Source: Sanyastnella coralliicola
Lineage (GTDB): Bacteria; Bacteroidota; Bacteroidia; Flavobacteriales_D; Sanyastnellaceae
Assembly: GCF_030845195.1 (NCBI RefSeq)
Contig: NZ_CP132543.1
Location: 1,815,501-1,879,500, forward strand
Direction of reading: 5' to 3'
Length of the DNA stretch: 64,000 bases
The notes below the pieces were generated by a model. That model was not told the origin of the DNA and did no database searches. It saw nothing but the letters and a program-made list of their open reading frames with translations. The translations under genes were made by a program, and so were the position numbers. This document shows positions 17,296 through 24,676 of the stretch, piece by piece (positions within the stretch are counted from its first letter, which is position 1; every line of letters begins with the position of its first letter).

Positions 17296-17486
17296 GGTAT
17301 CTGGTTATTTGGTTCTTTCGTAAGAACCTGAAAACATGTGAATTGTTCTATTCTTAAGTGATGCAACATTTGAAAAGCTGAATGCAATAGGGTCCAATGG
17401 GATCAAGACCATTCATGTATTTTCACATTTGTCTCGCAACAAAAGACCTACCTTGTCGCTTAAGTAACCGAATCGAACCAAAAGAC

Positions 17487-20078
17487 ATGAAACCGATCGT
17501 AAGATTAATGAGCCTCTTCATGCTCATCGGGCTTGTTGCTGTCGCTCTCCCGGCAGACGCTCAAAAGAAGAAAAAAAAGAAAAAAGGCAAAGCTGACACA
17601 GAAGAGCCGGCTAAGCCCAAGAAAGACGGAAAAATGCCGTCGGAAATTACCAAGTCATGTGCTGCCTACGAAGGGCTTTTCACCGTTTATCAGGATACTG
17701 TAACCGGGAAATCATACATGCAGGTAAAAGCAGATCAACTGGATAAGGAGTACATCTACTTCTCATTCGTCGAAGATGGTTTGCTCGAAGCAGGATCTTT
17801 CCGTGGTTCTTACCGTGGTTCTAAAGTGATCTCTTTCCACCGTTACTACGATAAGTTAGAGATCAAGCACCAGAACACTTCTTACTACTTTGATGAGAAC
17901 AATGCACTTGCAAAGGCCGCAGAAGCCAACATAAACACACCGATCATTGCTAGTTTGAGCATTGAAGCGATGGATGAAGATTCAGGGGTTTACATTGTCT
18001 CTGCAGACAAGATTTTCTTGAGCGAGACATTCCAAATGATCAAGCCTCCAAGCAGTCCGGCGTTCCCAAGCTTCTTGGGCGGATTGAGCAAGGGGAAAAC
18101 GAAGATTCTTGACATCAATAGCTACCCAGCTAACACTGATATTTCGGTAGAATACGTTTACGACAACCCAGCACCACGTCGTGGTGGAAGCTCTGCAGCA
18201 ACAGATGTTCGTTACGTTAGCATCCGTTACCAGCACAGCTTGATTGAAATGCCTGATAATGACTACCAACCGCGTCGTGATGATCCACGTATCGGTTATT
18301 TCATGACCCAGGTAAACGATATGACCAGCTTTGATGCCACTCCATACCGTGATATGATTCACCGTTGGAATTTGGTAAAGAAAGATCCTAATGCTGCTGT
18401 CTCTGATCCAGTAGAGCCGATCACTTGGTGGATTGAGAACACCACTCCAGAAGAGTTCCGTCCGATCATCAAAGAAGGTGTTGAACGATGGAATGTTGCT
18501 TTCGAAAAGGCTGGATTCAGTAACGCAGTGGTTGTTAAAGTGCAACCAGATGACGCCGATTGGGATGCTGGAGACATTCGTTACAACGTACTTCGTTGGA
18601 CTTCTTCTCCTCAACCTCCGTTCGGTGGTTACGGACCAAGCTTTGTGAACCCACGCACAGGGGAAATCCTAGGAGCAGATATCATGCTCGAATTTGCATC
18701 CATTCGCGGACGCTTGTTCCGTGAAGAGATTTTCTCGCTTGCTGGAACGCAAATGGCTGAAGAAGAATTAACGAAAGAAGACATCATTGCTGATATGCAC
18801 CGCTGCGACATGGGTACAGTAATGCACCGTAACATGATGTTCGGACAAGCAGCCATGCGCGCAATGAACATGGGTGACGCCGCCGAGAAAGACTTTGTGA
18901 AGCAAACTCTTTACCGCCTGTGTCTACACGAAGTGGGGCACACATTAGGACTTTCGCACAATATGCGCGCTTCTACCCTACTCACACCAAAGCAGATTAA
19001 AGACGCAGACGTTGTTGCTGAAATGGGAATGTGTAATTCTGTGATGGAATACCCAGCAATCAACTTTGCTTACGACAAAGAAGACCAAACAGCTTACTAC
19101 GATGGCAACCCAGGATTCTATGATATGTGGGTTATCGAATATGGATACTCACAAGGGCTGGATGATCCTGAAGCAGAAGAGCGTCGACTAGAAGCCATCC
19201 TCTCTCGTTCACACGATCCAAAACTTGCGTTCGGTAACGATGCTGACGATATGCGTTCTCCAGGACGTGGAATCGATCCAGACATCAACATCTACGATTT
19301 GAGTAGCGATCCTGTGGCATACGCTGTTGAGCGTTGTGAACTTGTAAAGAAGGTGATGCCAAAAATTAAAGACAAGTACACTGATGCTGGTGACGGTTAC
19401 CAAGATCTACGCAACGCGTACATGTCGCTGACTGGAGAGTACACAACTCAGCTTGGTGTCATGACGCGTCAGATTGGTGGTGTGCACATCGATCGTGCCA
19501 TTGCCGGTCAAAATGCGGAGAGTGTTCCATTCACCCCTGTTTCTGAAGCAGATCAGAAGGCAGCGATGAAAGGATTGGCAACTTACGCCTTTGCTCCTGA
19601 TGCCTTCGAAGCAGATGAAGAGTTGTACCGCTACCTCATGATGCAACGTCGTGGATTCGGTCACTTCGGCAACAATGAAGACCCGCGTATTCACGATCGT
19701 ATTTTGGCTGCACAGTCATACGCCTTAGCGCACTTGCTTCATCCGAACGTTTTGAAGCGTATTGTAGATAGCCAAGAGTACGGCAACACCTATGAGTTGG
19801 ATGAGTACATGACAGACCTTACGGATGCGATCTTCAAGGCCGATCTACGTACAAAGGTGAACACTCGTCGTCAGAACCTACAGATCTTGTATGTGAAGAG
19901 ACTGATCTCAACGATCGGAGAAAAGAGCCGTTACAGCTTCCATGCACGCAGTATGGCGTTGTATGAGTTGAACCGCATTAACCGCTCTATGCGAAATGCA
20001 TCTTCTCCAGATACAATGACAAAAGCTCACCGCCAGCACATTTCGAAGCTGATCGATGATGCTCTAGAAGGAAAATAA
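17487..20078 (+). CDS. Zinc-dependent metalloprotease (DUF5117/DUF4953 type)
   Basis: 863 aa from ATG 17487. An in-frame codon at 17397 would add 30 residues that lack any signal; the ATG chosen gives MKPIVRLMSLFMLIGLVAVALPADA, a clean signal peptide, followed by a Lys run. The N-terminal half matches the DUF5118/DUF5117 type (DKEYIYFSFVEDGLLEAGSFR). The catalytic met-zincin motif HEVGHTLGLSH is at 481-491 (zinc ligands H481, H485, H491), with a downstream Met turn in SVMEYPAINF. Such proteins are common, large, secreted or periplasmic peptidases of Bacteroidota with unknown substrates. It stands alone, with a strong terminator shared with the convergent trpB2. Confidence 0.92.
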   Translation: MKPIVRLMSLFMLIGLVAVALPADAQKKKKKKKGKADTEEPAKPKKDGKMPSEITKSCAAYEGLFTVYQDTVTGKSYMQVKADQLDKEYIYFSFVEDGLLEAGSFRGSYRGSKVISFHRYYDKLEIKHQNTSYYFDENNALAKAAEANINTPIIASLSIEAMDEDSGVYIVSADKIFLSETFQMIKPPSSPAFPSFLGGLSKGKTKILDINSYPANTDISVEYVYDNPAPRRGGSSAATDVRYVSIRYQHSLIEMPDNDYQPRRDDPRIGYFMTQVNDMTSFDATPYRDMIHRWNLVKKDPNAAVSDPVEPITWWIENTTPEEFRPIIKEGVERWNVAFEKAGFSNAVVVKVQPDDADWDAGDIRYNVLRWTSSPQPPFGGYGPSFVNPRTGEILGADIMLEFASIRGRLFREEIFSLAGTQMAEEELTKEDIIADMHRCDMGTVMHRNMMFGQAAMRAMNMGDAAEKDFVKQTLYRLCLHEVGHTLGLSHNMRASTLLTPKQIKDADVVAEMGMCNSVMEYPAINFAYDKEDQTAYYDGNPGFYDMWVIEYGYSQGLDDPEAEERRLEAILSRSHDPKLAFGNDADDMRSPGRGIDPDINIYDLSSDPVAYAVERCELVKKVMPKIKDKYTDAGDGYQDLRNAYMSLTGEYTTQLGVMTRQIGGVHIDRAIAGQNAESVPFTPVSEADQKAAMKGLATYAFAPDAFEADEELYRYLMMQRRGFGHFGNNEDPRIHDRILAAQSYALAHLLHPNVLKRIVDSQEYGNTYELDEYMTDLTDAIFKADLRTKVNTRRQNLQILYVKRLISTIGEKSRYSFHARSMALYELNRINRSMRNASSPDTMTKAHRQHISKLIDDALEGK

Positions 20079-20098
20079 TATTCCACTAGTTGGAAAAA

Positions 20099-20130
20099 GA
20101 AAAGGCGCTCGAATCATCGGGCGCCTTTTT
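20099..20130. terminator. Bidirectional terminator between the zincin and trpB2
   Basis: Stem AAAAGGCGC (20100-20108) with GCGCCTTTT (20121-20129), 12-base loop, T run on the plus side and A-rich left flank giving U tract on the minus side. It serves both convergent genes. Confidence 0.8.
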
Positions 20131-20152
20131 AATTGAGCCTAACCAAAGCTCT

Positions 20153-21520
20153 TCATACTAGCGACGGAGTCTGAATTTTCTGCAGTGCCTTCTGAACATC
20201 TGCATCTGACAGCTCGTGCTTAACCAAAGATCCTTTGAGGTAATCATCGTATGCTTTGAGATCGAAGTATCCGTGACCGCATAAGTGGATGAGAATGACT
20301 TTACTTTCTCCTGATTCCTTGCACTTCTTTGCTTCGCGAATAGCAGATGCAATCGCGTGGCATGTTTCTGGTGCCGGTAGAATCCCTTCCTTTTGAGTAA
20401 AGAGCACTCCTGCTTCAAAACACTCCAGCTGATCAATCGCTTCAGCCTCAATCAACTTGTCTTTTAGCAACTGACTCACCACAACTCCTGCTCCGTGGTA
20501 ACGCAGACCGCCGGCATGGATAGGTGCTGGAACGAATTGGTGCCCTAGTGTATACATTGGCATCAACGGGGTCATTCCCACCGTATCACCGAAGTCATAA
20601 CGGAACTCTCCTTTGGTCAACTTCGGACATGAAGACGGTTCACTCGCAATGCATCGAATCTTGCGTCCTTGTGTGAAATTCATGCGAAGGAACGGAAAGC
20701 TGATACCGGCGAAGTTTGATCCGCCACCGAAGGGAGCACAGATAATATCTGGCATCTCTCCTGCCTTCTCCATTTGCTTGATAGCTTCTTGTCCGATAAC
20801 CGTTTGGTGAAGCAATACGTGATTCAACACACTTCCCAAAGCGTACTTCGTATCTGGGTCGTTCGCTGCCTTTTCAACCGCCTCTGAAATGGCGATCCCT
20901 AAGCTACCAGGTGAGTCTGGATCTTCAGCGAGGATCTTTCTTCCAGCCTCTGTTGTGTTTGTTGGTGATGCGTGTACATCTGCTCCATAAGTCTGCATCA
21001 ACATTTTGCGATAAGGCTTCTGATCATGGCTAATCCTCACCATGAATACCTCACAGTCAATATTGAACTGGGCGCAAGCGAAGCTCAAAGCCGAACCCCA
21101 TTGACCAGCACCTGTTTCAGTGGTAATCTTCTTTACACCCTCCATTTTATTGTAATAGGCTTGCGCAATAGCAGTGTTGGGTTTGTGGGATCCACTTGGA
21201 GATACTCCCTCATACTTGTAGTAGATCTTCGCCGGAGTATCGAGTGCCTTTTCTAACTCGAATGCTCTGAATAGCGGTGTTGGACGATACTTCAAATAGG
21301 TATCTCTCACCTCATCAGGGATTTCGATCATCTGTTCGGCACTGACCTCCTGTTTGATCAGTTCTTCGGGGAACAATGGAGCTAAGGCCTCAGGACCGAT
21401 GGGCTCCATAGTACCCGGATTTAGTGGGGGCAGCGGCTTGTTCGGCATGTCTGCCACGATGTTGTAAAAGTGCGTAGGCACCTCCTGCGGAAGCAGGTCA
21501 AAACGTCTGTTTTTCATCAT
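20153..21520 (-). CDS. trpB2: TrpB2-type tryptophan synthase beta subunit
   Basis: 455 aa, the longer TrpB2 class (TIGR01415 type). It makes L-tryptophan from indole and serine with pyridoxal phosphate. The PLP lysine is K113 in SPSGSHKPNTA; TETGAGQWGSALSFAC and the phosphate-binding FGGGSNFAG are clear. TrpB2 carries an N-terminal extension, seen here, and typically acts without TrpA. It is a stand-alone gene here. It starts at ATG 21520 (a second ATG follows directly) and lies 43 bases behind the T tract of an attenuator whose leader peptide is rich in Trp codons, which independently supports the tryptophan assignment. Confidence 0.95.
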   Translation of the reverse strand: MMKNRRFDLLPQEVPTHFYNIVADMPNKPLPPLNPGTMEPIGPEALAPLFPEELIKQEVSAEQMIEIPDEVRDTYLKYRPTPLFRAFELEKALDTPAKIYYKYEGVSPSGSHKPNTAIAQAYYNKMEGVKKITTETGAGQWGSALSFACAQFNIDCEVFMVRISHDQKPYRKMLMQTYGADVHASPTNTTEAGRKILAEDPDSPGSLGIAISEAVEKAANDPDTKYALGSVLNHVLLHQTVIGQEAIKQMEKAGEMPDIICAPFGGGSNFAGISFPFLRMNFTQGRKIRCIASEPSSCPKLTKGEFRYDFGDTVGMTPLMPMYTLGHQFVPAPIHAGGLRYHGAGVVVSQLLKDKLIEAEAIDQLECFEAGVLFTQKEGILPAPETCHAIASAIREAKKCKESGESKVILIHLCGHGYFDLKAYDDYLKGSLVKHELSDADVQKALQKIQTPSLV

Positions 21521-21562
21521 GTATTGGTTTGAAATAATTGGAATTCGGAAAAAATGGGCAAC

Positions 21563-21587
21563 AAAAAAGCCCCGCTCGTGCGGGGCT
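21563..21587 (-). terminator. Attenuator terminator of trpB2
   Basis: On the minus strand, AGCCCCGC - ACGA - GCGGGGCT (plus coordinates 21568-21587), an 8-bp perfect GC-rich stem followed by six Ts (21563-21568). It starts 27 bases after the leader peptide stop and ends 43 bases before trpB2. The hexamer GCACGA at the stem-loop junction (plus 21576-21581) is complementary to a segment of the leader (plus 21624-21629), which could form the antiterminator. Confidence 0.85.
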
Positions 21588-21614
21588 CATTAATATCTAT
21601 TCAACATATAGGTA

Positions 21615-21686
21615 TTACCACCAGCACGACTGACGCCATGAGGTGCACCACCAAGAAAGATTTGTATATGTTGTGTTGTTGCGCAT
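21615..21686 (-). CDS. trpL: trp leader peptide (five Trp codons)
   Basis: A 23-codon frame, ATG at 21686 to TAA at 21615-21617. Trp occurs at codons 12, 13, 17, 22 and 23 (SWWCTSW, then CWW before the stop); five of 23 residues for an amino acid that is normally about 1%. A -7 box TATCTTTG lies 8 bases upstream and an intrinsic terminator 27 bases downstream, directly in front of trpB2. This is the layout of a ribosome-mediated attenuator: stalling at Trp codons under starvation would favour an antiterminator. The peptide itself probably has no other function. Confidence 0.85.
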   Translation of the reverse strand: MRNNTTYTNLSWWCTSWRQSCWW

Positions 21687-21694
21687 TGCTATGA

Positions 21695-21702
21695 CAAAGA
21701 TA
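21695..21702 (-). promoter_or_regulatory. Promoter -7 box of the trp leader
   Basis: On the minus strand TATCTTTG, exact TAnnTTTG, 8 bases upstream of the leader ATG. No clear -33 TTTG at the usual distance. Confidence 0.6.
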
Positions 21703-21737
21703 CAGCTTGGTTTTAGAATTCCCTACTTCATCTCACT

Positions 21738-22295
21738 TTAGGGTACAACCTGCTCATATTTCAGGTATCGAAAGTCGTTGAAGAGTATAGATTCATCCGT
21801 CATCTTCTCCAAAGGCATGTCTAATGAATCAGTCACTGCTGCCACGAGTTGTGCGTTCGCACAGTTACATTTGTAAACGTTTCCGAAGTAGGAGAACCAA
21901 TAACTTCCCTGTTGCCAAAGCACTTCACACTCGTTTCCACGATCACAAACATAGCTACCTACGTAATCAGCGCAACGGGCACCTTTCGTGGTCATGACGA
22001 GCCCTTTGAACCGGATACTCGATTCATTGATCAGCTCTACCTCTGCTCTTTCGTTATTTGAAACGGCAATGAGTTTGCCTTCCGAACACTCACATTGATA
22101 TTCTGTCTCATTGTACATTAACACATCGCTCCCGGGGAATGAAAGCTCCAATATGTGTGATGGGCCGTGCATAAATGCCCCTGCCAAAGGCTCGCACTTT
22201 TGATTTTGAAGATCCGCTGCATACAATGCAAAGCCACCTATAAGTACGATGACAACAAGGATGATGCGGTACTTTCCAAATTGCTTCATGATCAT
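21738..22295 (-). CDS. Membrane-anchored Cys-rich protein with an internal duplication
   Basis: 185 aa. An uncleaved signal anchor or signal peptide (about 9-27, RIILVVIVLIGGFALYAA) and an exported Cys-rich part. Two similar blocks can be seen: one containing YQCECSEGKLIAVSNN (about 66-81) and one containing YKCNCANAQLVAAVTDS (about 140-156), each preceded by an aromatic/beta stretch, so the exported part is probably two copies of one small disulfide domain. No known family. It lies alone between trpB2 and the papain-like protease, same strand as both. Confidence 0.75.
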   Translation of the reverse strand: MIMKQFGKYRIILVVIVLIGGFALYAADLQNQKCEPLAGAFMHGPSHILELSFPGSDVLMYNETEYQCECSEGKLIAVSNNERAEVELINESSIRFKGLVMTTKGARCADYVGSYVCDRGNECEVLWQQGSYWFSYFGNVYKCNCANAQLVAAVTDSLDMPLEKMTDESILFNDFRYLKYEQVVP

Positions 22296-22402
22296 TGCAT
22301 GGATTTGGATTACCTAATTAACTCTCAGCCTTAAGTAACACAAAATCAATGGATTTGTTAGTACACTTGATAAATATCAGCTGACACCTACACGTTGAAA
22401 TC

Positions 22403-23950
22403 TCACTGTTTGTCAATACTGATAACGACTCCGATCATTTCTTCCTTCGCTAAATCAGCACTGAAATCGATCATATTCCCACCTTCAAATCGCACGTTCT
22501 GCACACCAAGTAGGCTTTGAAGTTTGTTCGCATAGGTTCCTTGACCAGACGAAAGACGCTGGTTGAAATCGTTGTAATCAATGGGATCTTGAGTTATGAC
22601 TATGGCGATATGATCTCGGTTTCCAACGTCGTCTGTTTTCATAGAGTAGTCACGAGGGAAAAGACGAGTGCCGGTAATTCCACAATATGGTGAGTGCTTC
22701 TCGGTATATGGGAACAACACATAACTACTTCCATCGGTCTCTTCACCAAAAACATAAATGTAACATGGCTTATCGTTGGTAATCTCCACTTTGAACTTGT
22801 CTCCAATTTCCACTGGATCAGCCGTCGAGAACATCCCTTCCATTCCTTGATGGAATCGCATGTACCCCCCATCATTCATTTTCAATCCGATCTCAGCCGT
22901 CAGACGTGATCCAAATGGAGCGTCGGCATTGCCCATTGGATCCATTCCATAGGCCTCACGAACGAAGTAATCGAAGTCTTTGTAGCGAACGTAGGCTACG
23001 CCATCGTTCCCCCAATCTTCACCCCAGCTGTTCATGATTTCGAAGGCTCCACCTTCCAAATAATCGTCATACCCGATAACACACATGGCATGTCCTCCAA
23101 AACCTCGCTGATCATAATCCGTCGCTGAAGGGATCCAAACATTCTTCCCGTGCATGCCTTGCATGAAGCTTCCACCGACCATCATTCCTATCACCACGGG
23201 TGCTCCTTGAGCAATGTGTTGTTTCACCGCCAGTAAATCAACCTCCCTCGCATTGTCACTTTTTGAAAGTCGCTGAAAACCATGGATTGTATAATCTTGC
23301 GCTCGCTCACGCTCGGAACTGTTAGGTTTATCAGAGCAAGAACGCTCATCATAGCCAAATTCACGGAAAGGAAGTACTCCTCCCTCCTGCAAATTCTCCA
23401 TGGCATCTGGGAGGTAAGAACCTTGACAATTGGTCAAGGCAATCTGGTTGTACAGATAACTAGGTGAAAATGCCAGTTGATTCGGGTTCTTCCCAGTTCT
23501 TCTAGATTCAAGAATGGTACGACCTGCATAACTCGCTGCCCATGCCACGCACGACCCTTGTTTCCCTTGGCTTAAACGTTTTGGTGCATATGCTTCTAGA
23601 CTAAAAGACTCTGGAAGCGGGTTCTTGATATTATCAGCCAACGGTTCATAGATTGCCGTATTCTCATGCTTCTCTGCCGAGTACTCTAGTCCGGTTGAGA
23701 ACAGGTTCTCTACGATATTCTGTGTGGTTTCTCCTCCACCTTCAAGTCCGCTGCATCCTCCTCCGAAGAAATACCACAAACCACCGATCACAGCCACTAC
23801 CAACAGCAACTTCGGTTTCTTCAACAAAAGTGGAATCAGATAAACCAAGGGGTTATTCCCCCCACCACCTCCTGTACTGGGACGTCTTCTTCTTCCAGGA
23901 TAATTGTCTTTTGAACGACGGTTGTCGTCCTTTTCCATTCTAACTGGCAT
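22403..23950 (-). CDS. Membrane-anchored C1 (papain-like) peptidase with DUF4384-like tail
   Basis: 515 aa. A short basic, Gly-rich cytoplasmic N-terminus, one membrane helix (about 36-63), then a papain-fold domain. The catalytic Cys is 134 in QGKQGSCVAWAAS, His in GGHAMCVIGYDD, Asn in NSWGEDWG. The C-terminal 150 residues (GDKFKVEITNDKPCYIYVF and onward) resemble the DUF4384 beta domain often found in outer or exported proteins of this phylum. It probably cleaves proteins outside the cytoplasmic membrane. MPVRMEKD has an alternative ATG four codons later (23938). A heptamer array sits directly upstream, at 23957-23984. Confidence 0.88.
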   Translation of the reverse strand: MPVRMEKDDNRRSKDNYPGRRRRPSTGGGGGNNPLVYLIPLLLKKPKLLLVVAVIGGLWYFFGGGCSGLEGGGETTQNIVENLFSTGLEYSAEKHENTAIYEPLADNIKNPLPESFSLEAYAPKRLSQGKQGSCVAWAASYAGRTILESRRTGKNPNQLAFSPSYLYNQIALTNCQGSYLPDAMENLQEGGVLPFREFGYDERSCSDKPNSSERERAQDYTIHGFQRLSKSDNAREVDLLAVKQHIAQGAPVVIGMMVGGSFMQGMHGKNVWIPSATDYDQRGFGGHAMCVIGYDDYLEGGAFEIMNSWGEDWGNDGVAYVRYKDFDYFVREAYGMDPMGNADAPFGSRLTAEIGLKMNDGGYMRFHQGMEGMFSTADPVEIGDKFKVEITNDKPCYIYVFGEETDGSSYVLFPYTEKHSPYCGITGTRLFPRDYSMKTDDVGNRDHIAIVITQDPIDYNDFNQRLSSGQGTYANKLQSLLGVQNVRFEGGNMIDFSADLAKEEMIGVVISIDKQ

Positions 23951-23956
23951 TTTTTT

Positions 23957-24062
23957 AGGCTTTAGGCGTTAGGCTATAGGCGTTAGTACTCTCCGCAATC
24001 CGCGATCCGCGATCCGCGATCCGCGATCCGCAATCCGCAATCCGCAATCCGCAATCCGCAAT
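23957..24062. repeat. Heptamer arrays: AGGCNTT block plus ten CCGCRAT units
   Basis: 23957-23984 is AGGCTTT, AGGCGTT, AGGCTAT, AGGCGTT. 23993-24062 is ten consecutive 7-bp units: one CCGCAAT, four CCGCGAT, five CCGCAAT. Both lie in the 252-base gap between the divergent protease and YkuK-like genes. The remaining part, 24063-24202, holds nothing clear apart from an isolated TGTGGATAA. Confidence 0.9.
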
Positions 24063-24202
24063 CCTTATGACGCAAGTATAGCACTCTAGGTCACAATGTG
24101 CGACACTTAAGTTCAGGATCTCAAGATTGTGGATAACCCATAAGAACTTTCACACCTCCTTAACATCGGTGAACCCTCTCTTTCAATAACTTAATAAGCG
24201 TT

Positions 24203-24676
24203 ATGAATGTGGACGATCCCTCAAGAGTATTTCAGATTATGGGCGGGAGACGACGTGTAGACTTCGTTTCATATGTCCGAGAGTTTACTGACTTGTACCC
24301 TCATTGTGAGGTTCATGTTGGTTGTGACAGTCAGAATCATCGTCAGAATACGGTGTATGTGACTACGATTGTATTCCGTTTTCCAGGTAATGGAGCGCAT
24401 GTGATCTATCGCAAGGAACGTGTGCCTAGGATCCCTGACCTCTGGTCGAAGTTATGGGGAGAGACAGAGCGATCAGTAGAGATTGCGGATGCCATTCGCA
24501 ATGAGCTGGGTGTCCAAATCAAGCAGATTGACCTCGATTTCAATACCGATCCCTCCTATCCTTCAAATAAGCTGTTGAGCGCGAGCGCGGGGTATATTTC
24601 CTCGATGGGCTTTCATAGCCAGGCGAAACCTGGACTCCTTATGGCTGCTTGGGCGGCAGATGTATTGTGCCATTGA
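24203..24676 (+). CDS. YkuK-like ribonuclease H-fold protein (DUF458)
   Basis: 157 aa. The start of an RNase H-like fold is visible: VHVGCDSQNHRQNTVYVTTIVF, where the Asp of CDSQ is the expected first acidic residue, followed by a Gly-rich hairpin, GETERSVEIADAIRNEL and QIDLDFNTDPSYPSNKL. This matches the YkuK/DUF458 family (PF04308 type); the B. subtilis member has no firm function. It is cytoplasmic, has no signal, and lies 35 bases before the SRPBCC gene on the same strand. Confidence 0.8.
   Translation: MNVDDPSRVFQIMGGRRRVDFVSYVREFTDLYPHCEVHVGCDSQNHRQNTVYVTTIVFRFPGNGAHVIYRKERVPRIPDLWSKLWGETERSVEIADAIRNELGVQIKQIDLDFNTDPSYPSNKLLSASAGYISSMGFHSQAKPGLLMAAWAADVLCH

Follow-up and report, generated by a model that had tools for sequence, protein, structure and literature searches.

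A predicted tryptophan attenuator in front of a stand-alone trpB2 gene of Bacteroidota and its probable link to indole salvage

Three roles have been proposed for TrpB2 enzymes encoded outside a trp operon: serine deaminase, spare synthase and indole scavenger. The window, that is, the whole stretch of 64,000 nucleotides of the Sanyastnella coralliicola chromosome analysed here, contains such a gene, placed behind what a preliminary description had read as a complete tryptophan attenuator. What is this lone enzyme for, and does tryptophan control its expression? When the minus strand was read base by base, the order was found to be -7 box, leader frame, GC hairpin with U6, and trpB2. The box, the 8-nt gap, the 23-codon leader, its five Trp codons, the T6 run and the trpB2 gene were all in place as first described. 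The features, in the order of transcription, are the following.

21695..21702, minus strand: -7 promoter box TATCTTTG, of Bacteroidota type, 6/6 match to TAnnTTTG
21615..21686 (TAA included), minus strand: predicted leader ORF MRNNTTYTNLSWWCTSWRQSCWW, 23 codons, Trp at codons 12, 13, 17, 22 and 23
21624..21629, minus strand: putative 5' strand of the antiterminator, UCGUGC, in codons 20-21, exact complement of 21581-21576
21576..21581, minus strand: putative 3' strand of the antiterminator, GCACGA, at the end of the terminator 5' arm and in the loop
21563..21588, minus strand: intrinsic terminator, 9-pair stem with 7 G-C pairs, loop ACGA, U6
20153..21520 (ATG at 21520), minus strand: trpB2, 455 aa, TrpB-like PLP enzyme

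The trpB2 gene and the reaction it may serve

The protein scored above the cut-offs of two TrpB2 models (NF009057, 716 bits with a cut-off of 366; TIGR01415, 639 bits with a cut-off of 518.85) and below that of the trpB model TIGR00263 (149 bits as compared to 392.45). The genome is a single contig of 4,097,636 bases, 99.87% complete, and the window gene is its one TIGR01415 match; the same model also matches in 14 of 14 control genomes. Profile searches of the complete genome, which among the trp genes covered trpA, trpB and trpC, found no second trpB and no match for trpA (PF00290) or trpC (PF00218). The trpC and trpA route to indole is therefore missing, as would be expected of an organism that salvages indole, and the bacterium appears unable to make tryptophan from scratch. 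Since trpA, trpC and a second trpB are all lacking, TrpB2 cannot complete the usual pathway, and external indole is its most likely substrate. According to PMC11917138 and PMC11085991, which cite Hettwer and Sterner (2002) and Hiyama (2014), TrpB2 has a high affinity for indole and an archaeal TrpB2 takes part in indole salvage. Indole salvage is the best reading of the role of the window's TrpB2 and would point to indole passing among community members. With both trpA and trpC missing, the presence of an apparent Trp-sensing switch before the lone trpB2 connects the enzyme with the need for tryptophan. The leader had been presented as direct evidence that TrpB2 is used for tryptophan supply; the evidence it gives is indirect, and the supply route would be indole salvage.

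The same gene content is common among the relatives. In 60 genomes, including the window's own, trpA was above cut-off in 7, trpC in 6 and TrpB2 in 3 (the window's genome, G001 and G057). Within the window's family, 35 of 37 genomes were without trpA above cut-off, and therefore most of them appear auxotrophic. Moreover, trpA, trpB1, trpC, trpE and trpG were not found beside trpB2 at 107 of 108 trpB2 loci, within at most 5 kb a side for 80 loci and 1.5 kb for 28, and less at contig ends. The sole locus with an adjoining trp gene is L018 (2442-6975), where trpE and trpG flank trpB2; upstream of trpE, which is spread over two frames and is perhaps frameshifted in this MAG, stands a Trp leader with WWW.

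A different reading keeps the attenuator as stated and has TrpB2 carry out a serine reaction or another beta-replacement, or use intracellular indole. TrpB2 has in the past been put forward as a serine deaminase (PMC1854888), and trpA is also present in 7 of the 28 leader-bearing genomes (the set is defined below), so that salvage cannot be the only setting in which the leader is found. Against this, a Trp-sensing leader suits a Trp-forming reaction, poor deaminase activity is reported for TrpB1 and TrpB2_o proteins in PMC1854888, and external indole is the simplest source where both trpA and trpC are missing. We regard this alternative as unlikely, albeit one that deserves some weight, and retain salvage of external indole as the preferred role.

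Anatomy and predicted switching of the leader

The box TATCTTTG was the sole match of at least 5/6 to TAnnTTTG, the -7 consensus as quoted in PMC7366714, on the minus strand within 21521-21800; 8 nt separate it from the leader ATG (21686). A short frame with tandem Trp codons thus directly follows the predicted promoter. Between leader and trpB2 lies the intrinsic terminator, kept in the sister genome, with the core GCCCCGC-ACGA-GCGGGGC at 21586-21569 and T6 at 21568-21563 (minus strand). An 8-bp GC stem placed 27 bases after the stop codon had been reported; the terminator stands, with 7 G-C pairs that A-U and G-U additions extend to 9, and the gap is 26-28 nt, depending on the chosen start of the stem. 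Because this anatomy and the cross-lineage comparison described below agree, the reading of the window leader as a complete Trp attenuator belonging to trpB2 is well supported at the level of sequence.

The short distance between box and start codon is a recurrent trait. In 20 of 27 trpB2 leaders (a set that does not include L044), a box of at least 5/6 was found 4-8 nt upstream of the ATG, as compared to a background of 5.6% of 3733 ATGs with such a box at 3-9 nt. In leaders of the Bacteroid-trp RNA (RF01692) the distance was 16-18 nt in 18/30 and 4-5 nt in 3/30; since these three share it, short spacing is typical of trpB2 leaders and not exclusive to them. Since transcription would start just before the leader AUG, the mRNA would have almost no 5' UTR, and its leader frame would be translated nearly as in a leaderless message. 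Such messages make up only a small share of mRNAs in Bacteroidota: published figures are 5.5% in Flavobacterium psychrophilum (PMC9723704) and, for 5' UTRs shorter than 10 nt, about 3.7% in Bacteroides thetaiotaomicron (PMC7366714).

The window was compared with the sister locus L002 (from the same genome as G001). From W12 to the U-run there was no substitution in 91 nt, the L002 U-run being longer by one T, and the first 33 nt of the leader had 4 substitutions, every one before W12. The trpB2 genes differed by 112 substitutions in 1368 positions, and the upstream genes by 77 in 558 compared positions. Other intergenic DNA was also fairly conserved (2/51 before the leader, 1/42 after the hairpin), and the segment from W12 to the U-run therefore stands out most clearly against coding DNA. 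Genome G002, of the same genus, retains two genes of the region 17397-24676, the metalloprotease gene (17397-20078) and the one at 24203, with one different ORF between them; it gave no match for trpB2 or its two upstream neighbours, and trpB2 may have been either gained or lost relative to G002. Between genes 22403-23950 and 24203, short repeats of the type RIADCGL/RIADRGS occur in three minus-strand frames (23955-24084).

The effect of ribosome position was modelled by folding the transcript up to the terminator loop, with the RNA masked as far as 12-13 nt past the first base of the A-site codon. For A-site positions from codon 10 to codon 16, UCGUGC paired with the terminator with a probability of 0.82-0.95 (0.89-0.90 at codons 12-13); this value dropped to 0.30 at codon 17 and was 0.00 from codon 18 onwards, including codons 22-24. 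On the basis of this footprint scan, waiting at W12/W13 would favour read-through, and waiting at W22/W23, or a ribosome at the stop codon, would favour termination. The two WW pairs had been treated as equivalent; in the footprint model they are opposites, since codons 12-13 leave the antiterminator free and codons 22-23 hide it. In the fold without a ribosome, a leader hairpin takes up most of UCGUGC. At equilibrium, the terminator was present in the window's full transcript whatever the ribosome state (P = 1.00); because the complete terminator always wins, the switch must be kinetic. In classical attenuators, too, the decision is held to be kinetic. The stability of the leader fold was not unusual (z = -1.49), nor was the window's energy gain in the stalled state exceptional (17.5% of shuffles equal it).

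The mechanism that we infer from these elements is as follows. When Trp-tRNA is plentiful, the ribosome would reach the stop codon and cover codons 20-21, the terminator would form and transcription would end at the U-run. When Trp-tRNA is scarce, the ribosome would stall at codons 12-13 and leave UCGUGC available for pairing with the terminal part of the terminator 5' arm and the loop, so that RNA polymerase could proceed into trpB2; under such tryptophan starvation, TrpB2 would make tryptophan from external indole. The arrangement may vary in detail among lineages. In those of L084, L005/L006, L063, L058 and L065, 16-27 nt separate the last base of the pairing strand from the end of the stop codon; a ribosome at termination might leave this strand exposed there, and a protecting hairpin would have to hide it. 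In the window, it is likely, in our judgement, that a ribosome-mediated attenuator of the Bacteroidota Trp-leader type controls the stand-alone trpB2 for indole salvage induced by tryptophan starvation.

The leader might instead work mainly by letting ribosomes reinitiate at trpB2, or in trans, through its peptide or the RNA left after termination, both modes having been described for other leaders (PMC4833913 and PMC7298713). We consider this quite improbable as the main mode, given that a strong terminator with U6 separates the leader from trpB2 and that the lineage-specific pairing of these two elements suggests that termination is what is controlled; either role could exist in addition to attenuation.

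Recurrence of the leader and of its pairing with the terminator

To compare lineages, the leader after the first Trp cluster was matched, in 12 lineage representatives, with the central 16 nt of its own terminator. In all 12 trpB2-leader lineages, 6-10 contiguous pairs join the leader tail to its own terminator core, and the pairing sequences vary by lineage: UCGUGC/GCACGA, GUGCAGC/GCUGCAU, UCCGACAUG/CAUGUCGGG, UCGUGAAC/GUUCGCGA, GCUGUGAA/UUCACAGC, GCUGUGUA/UACACAGC and others. A leader's own terminator was its best or tied best partner in 10/12 lineages, and when terminators were permuted among the 12 lineages the observed sum was reached in 0 of 50,000 draws (p = 2e-5). Collapsing the Bacteroidales to one (8 lineages) gave p = 1e-4, each leave-one-out run was at the floor of 10,000 draws, and other core widths gave the same result. 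Control segments gave no signal (leader as far as the Trp cluster, p = 0.15; spacer, p = 0.81). The complementarity of UCGUGC and GCACGA, noticed in the window at the outset, is exact, and the proposed antiterminator holds comparatively.

The rule of leader tail and terminator core was framed post hoc, after a weaker first test and inspection of folds. The first test, which matched the leader up to the stop codon with the terminator 5' arm and loop, gave p = 0.016 on 13 lineages (clade-wise Wilcoxon p = 0.11) and was replaced because helices extending beyond the stop codon or involving the 3' arm escaped it. L043, whose lineage is represented by L042, has just a 5-pair helix, at a different place. 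Among RF01692 loci, which were not used for framing the rule, a helix of 6-9 pairs was found in 29/30, the 30th being without a detected terminator; here permutation gave p = 0.025 on 11 terminator cores, with little variation among loci. A leader tail complementary to the terminator core offers a simple sequence rule for finding more such leaders. A pattern of -7 box, ATG and TGGTGG searched for in the genome gave 113 matches, the window's included, as compared to 70 in the reversed control, and is therefore not specific for other Trp leaders.

The best 80 of 410 stretches encoding a TrpB2 relative were scanned with a strict detector that required W.?W in a frame of 8-60 codons starting at ATG and, at no more than 110 nt, an intrinsic terminator; 2 of them have hardly any upstream sequence and were still scanned. 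A match lay before trpB2 in 22 loci. Elsewhere, 1,569,588 nt of strand yielded 6 matches on 5 other locus-strands, one of the 6 being the Trp leader MNNSFRNISWWWRTS before trpE in L018. Considering this difference together with the cross-lineage complementarity, Trp leaders stand before trpB2 more often than expected by chance. Those of L042, L044, L045 and L058, which have weaker terminators, were added by eye. G057, from another family of the same order, encodes a TrpB2 72% identical to the window's, preceded by a leader (MNFSTSTNFWWWHMDRSVQPFYACNLT) and a terminator of its own.

In the window's order TrpB2 was found in 7/399 genomes, and in the window's family trpB2 is present in two other genera. 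The 6 TrpB2 genomes of the order with upstream sequence all carry a Trp-rich leader (6/6), with a terminator in 5/6; the sixth, G963 (L188), has the leader MNVHHTIQRTNGLWWWLPFPEGSPSVRV and N letters at the terminator region, and is the only one not already among the loci above (G939 and G1056 repeat L005 and L006, and G1054, with locus L187, has too little upstream sequence). In the window's class TrpB2 occurs in 28/395 genomes, the window's own included, and the strict detector found a leader in 0/27 of the other trpB2 loci of this sample; the distribution of the switch is patchy. Since only 13 of these 27 genomes have trpA and none of the loci has a strict leader, the loss of trpA is not sufficient for a leader.

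The preliminary description held that related trpB2 genes keeping the terminator and lacking any Trp-rich leader would speak against an attenuator. Such cases were found in part: many related genes are leaderless, and among them L066 keeps a Bacteroidales-type terminator before trpB2 and L071 a degraded one, both without a Trp leader. At these two loci the terminator lies within 60 nt upstream of trpB2 with another gene's end close upstream, and both genomes have trpA. That the window hairpin is likewise a mere terminator of the upstream gene (21738-22295), which runs in the same direction as trpB2 and ends about 150 nt before the hairpin, and the Trp-rich frame a chance ORF, can hardly be credited even with the example of L066, considering that Trp leaders of varied sequence, complementary to their own terminators, recur before trpB2, that a 6/6 promoter box lies between upstream gene and leader with no box of at least 5/6 between hairpin and trpB2, and that L002 shows no substitution from W12 through the hairpin.

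We also counted trpA at loci with and without the leader. A trpA above cut-off was missing at 21/28 leader loci as compared to 27/79 leaderless loci (Fisher p = 3e-4), in a sample with many incomplete MAGs and with three class-sample proteins identical to rows of the first set. The 28 leader loci are the 22 strict ones, L042, L044, L045, L058, the window and L084; L007 and L020, with too little upstream sequence, are left out of the count. On the tree only 4 independent pairs were usable (sign test p 0.125 to 1), too few for more, and the link between leader and trpA loss is therefore claimed as an association only. In L131-L135, which belong to one genus with genomes of 1.5-2.3 Mb without trpA, a short Trp-rich frame with GWGWVW, GWRWVW or GWVWRP-like words lies about 130-350 nt before trpB2, and the detector found no fitting terminator; these frames are perhaps another kind of Trp-sensing leader.

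With regard to the phylum as a whole, we lean, with modest confidence, towards the view that a near-leaderless Trp attenuator, whose tail reads its own terminator core, was gained before stand-alone trpB2 or lost from it several times in Bacteroidota (on a quick TrpB2 tree, at least 7 changes in the presence of the leader are needed), making TrpB2 an indole scavenger induced by tryptophan starvation, often without the rest of the pathway. If true, this would reveal the function of stand-alone TrpB2 in these bacteria.

Comparison with known tryptophan leaders

The nearest known system is the Bacteroid-trp RNA (RF01692), listed in Weinberg et al. (2010; PMC2864571), for which we obtained matches in 41/395 genomes of the phylum, 37 of them above cut-off. 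Like the window leader, it belongs to Bacteroidota and has a short leader with UGG repeats and a terminator. Its leader tail GUCGUGA is complementary to its own terminator core UCACGAC (29/30 loci), a kind of pairing that the window shares, and its tail CGUCAG..UCGUG is similar to the window's CGUCAGUCGUGC. It differs in the distance between box and ATG, usually 16-18 nt there and 8 nt in the window. No TrpB2 was found in about 1.5 kb downstream of the 30 RF01692 loci fetched, and a trpB1-like gene was present in 3; in L137, L139, L145, L160 and L165, which are among the others, there is a gene for which trpE_most was the best model, with 417-439 bits, below its cut-off of 517.7. The RF01692 covariance model (cut-off 49 bits) did not match the window leader, and the window's genome gave no match at E <= 0.001; among the trpB2 leaders tried (L012, L065, L061, L045, L028, L084 and L082), the best score was 40.1 bits, for L012.

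The enterobacterial trp leader (RF00513) resembles the window leader in its tandem Trp codons and in the competition predicted between antiterminator and terminator. With this model the window leader scored 33.0 bits (E = 0.0073), below the gathering score of 41. Unlike in RF00513, a single gene follows in the window, the ATG lies 8 nt after the box and the 5' pairing strand is inside the leader ORF. The window leader works, in its predicted mode, like RF01692 and RF00513 and shares the pairing of the former; by score it is not a member of either.

In the main text of open-licence papers, no attenuator of a stand-alone trpB2 was found for Bacteroidota. PMC1262725 was the only one of these papers to treat trpB2 and a leader peptide together, describing a candidate Trp attenuator before trpB2A of Corynebacterium diphtheriae. 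This candidate is from Actinobacteria and belongs to an operon with trpA beside trpB1EDGC; on that text, the gene is not stand-alone and the organism not an auxotroph. For F. psychrophilum, PMC9723704 speaks of 'strong clues' of leader-peptide attenuation before amino-acid operons. The novelty first suspected for the window leader has therefore to be narrowed, since Trp leaders of Bacteroidota are already contained in RF01692; it holds for the stand-alone trpB2 as target. The principle is already known; the target and its setting are new, and with them tryptophan attenuation in Bacteroidota would reach beyond trp operons to a stand-alone gene that probably serves salvage.
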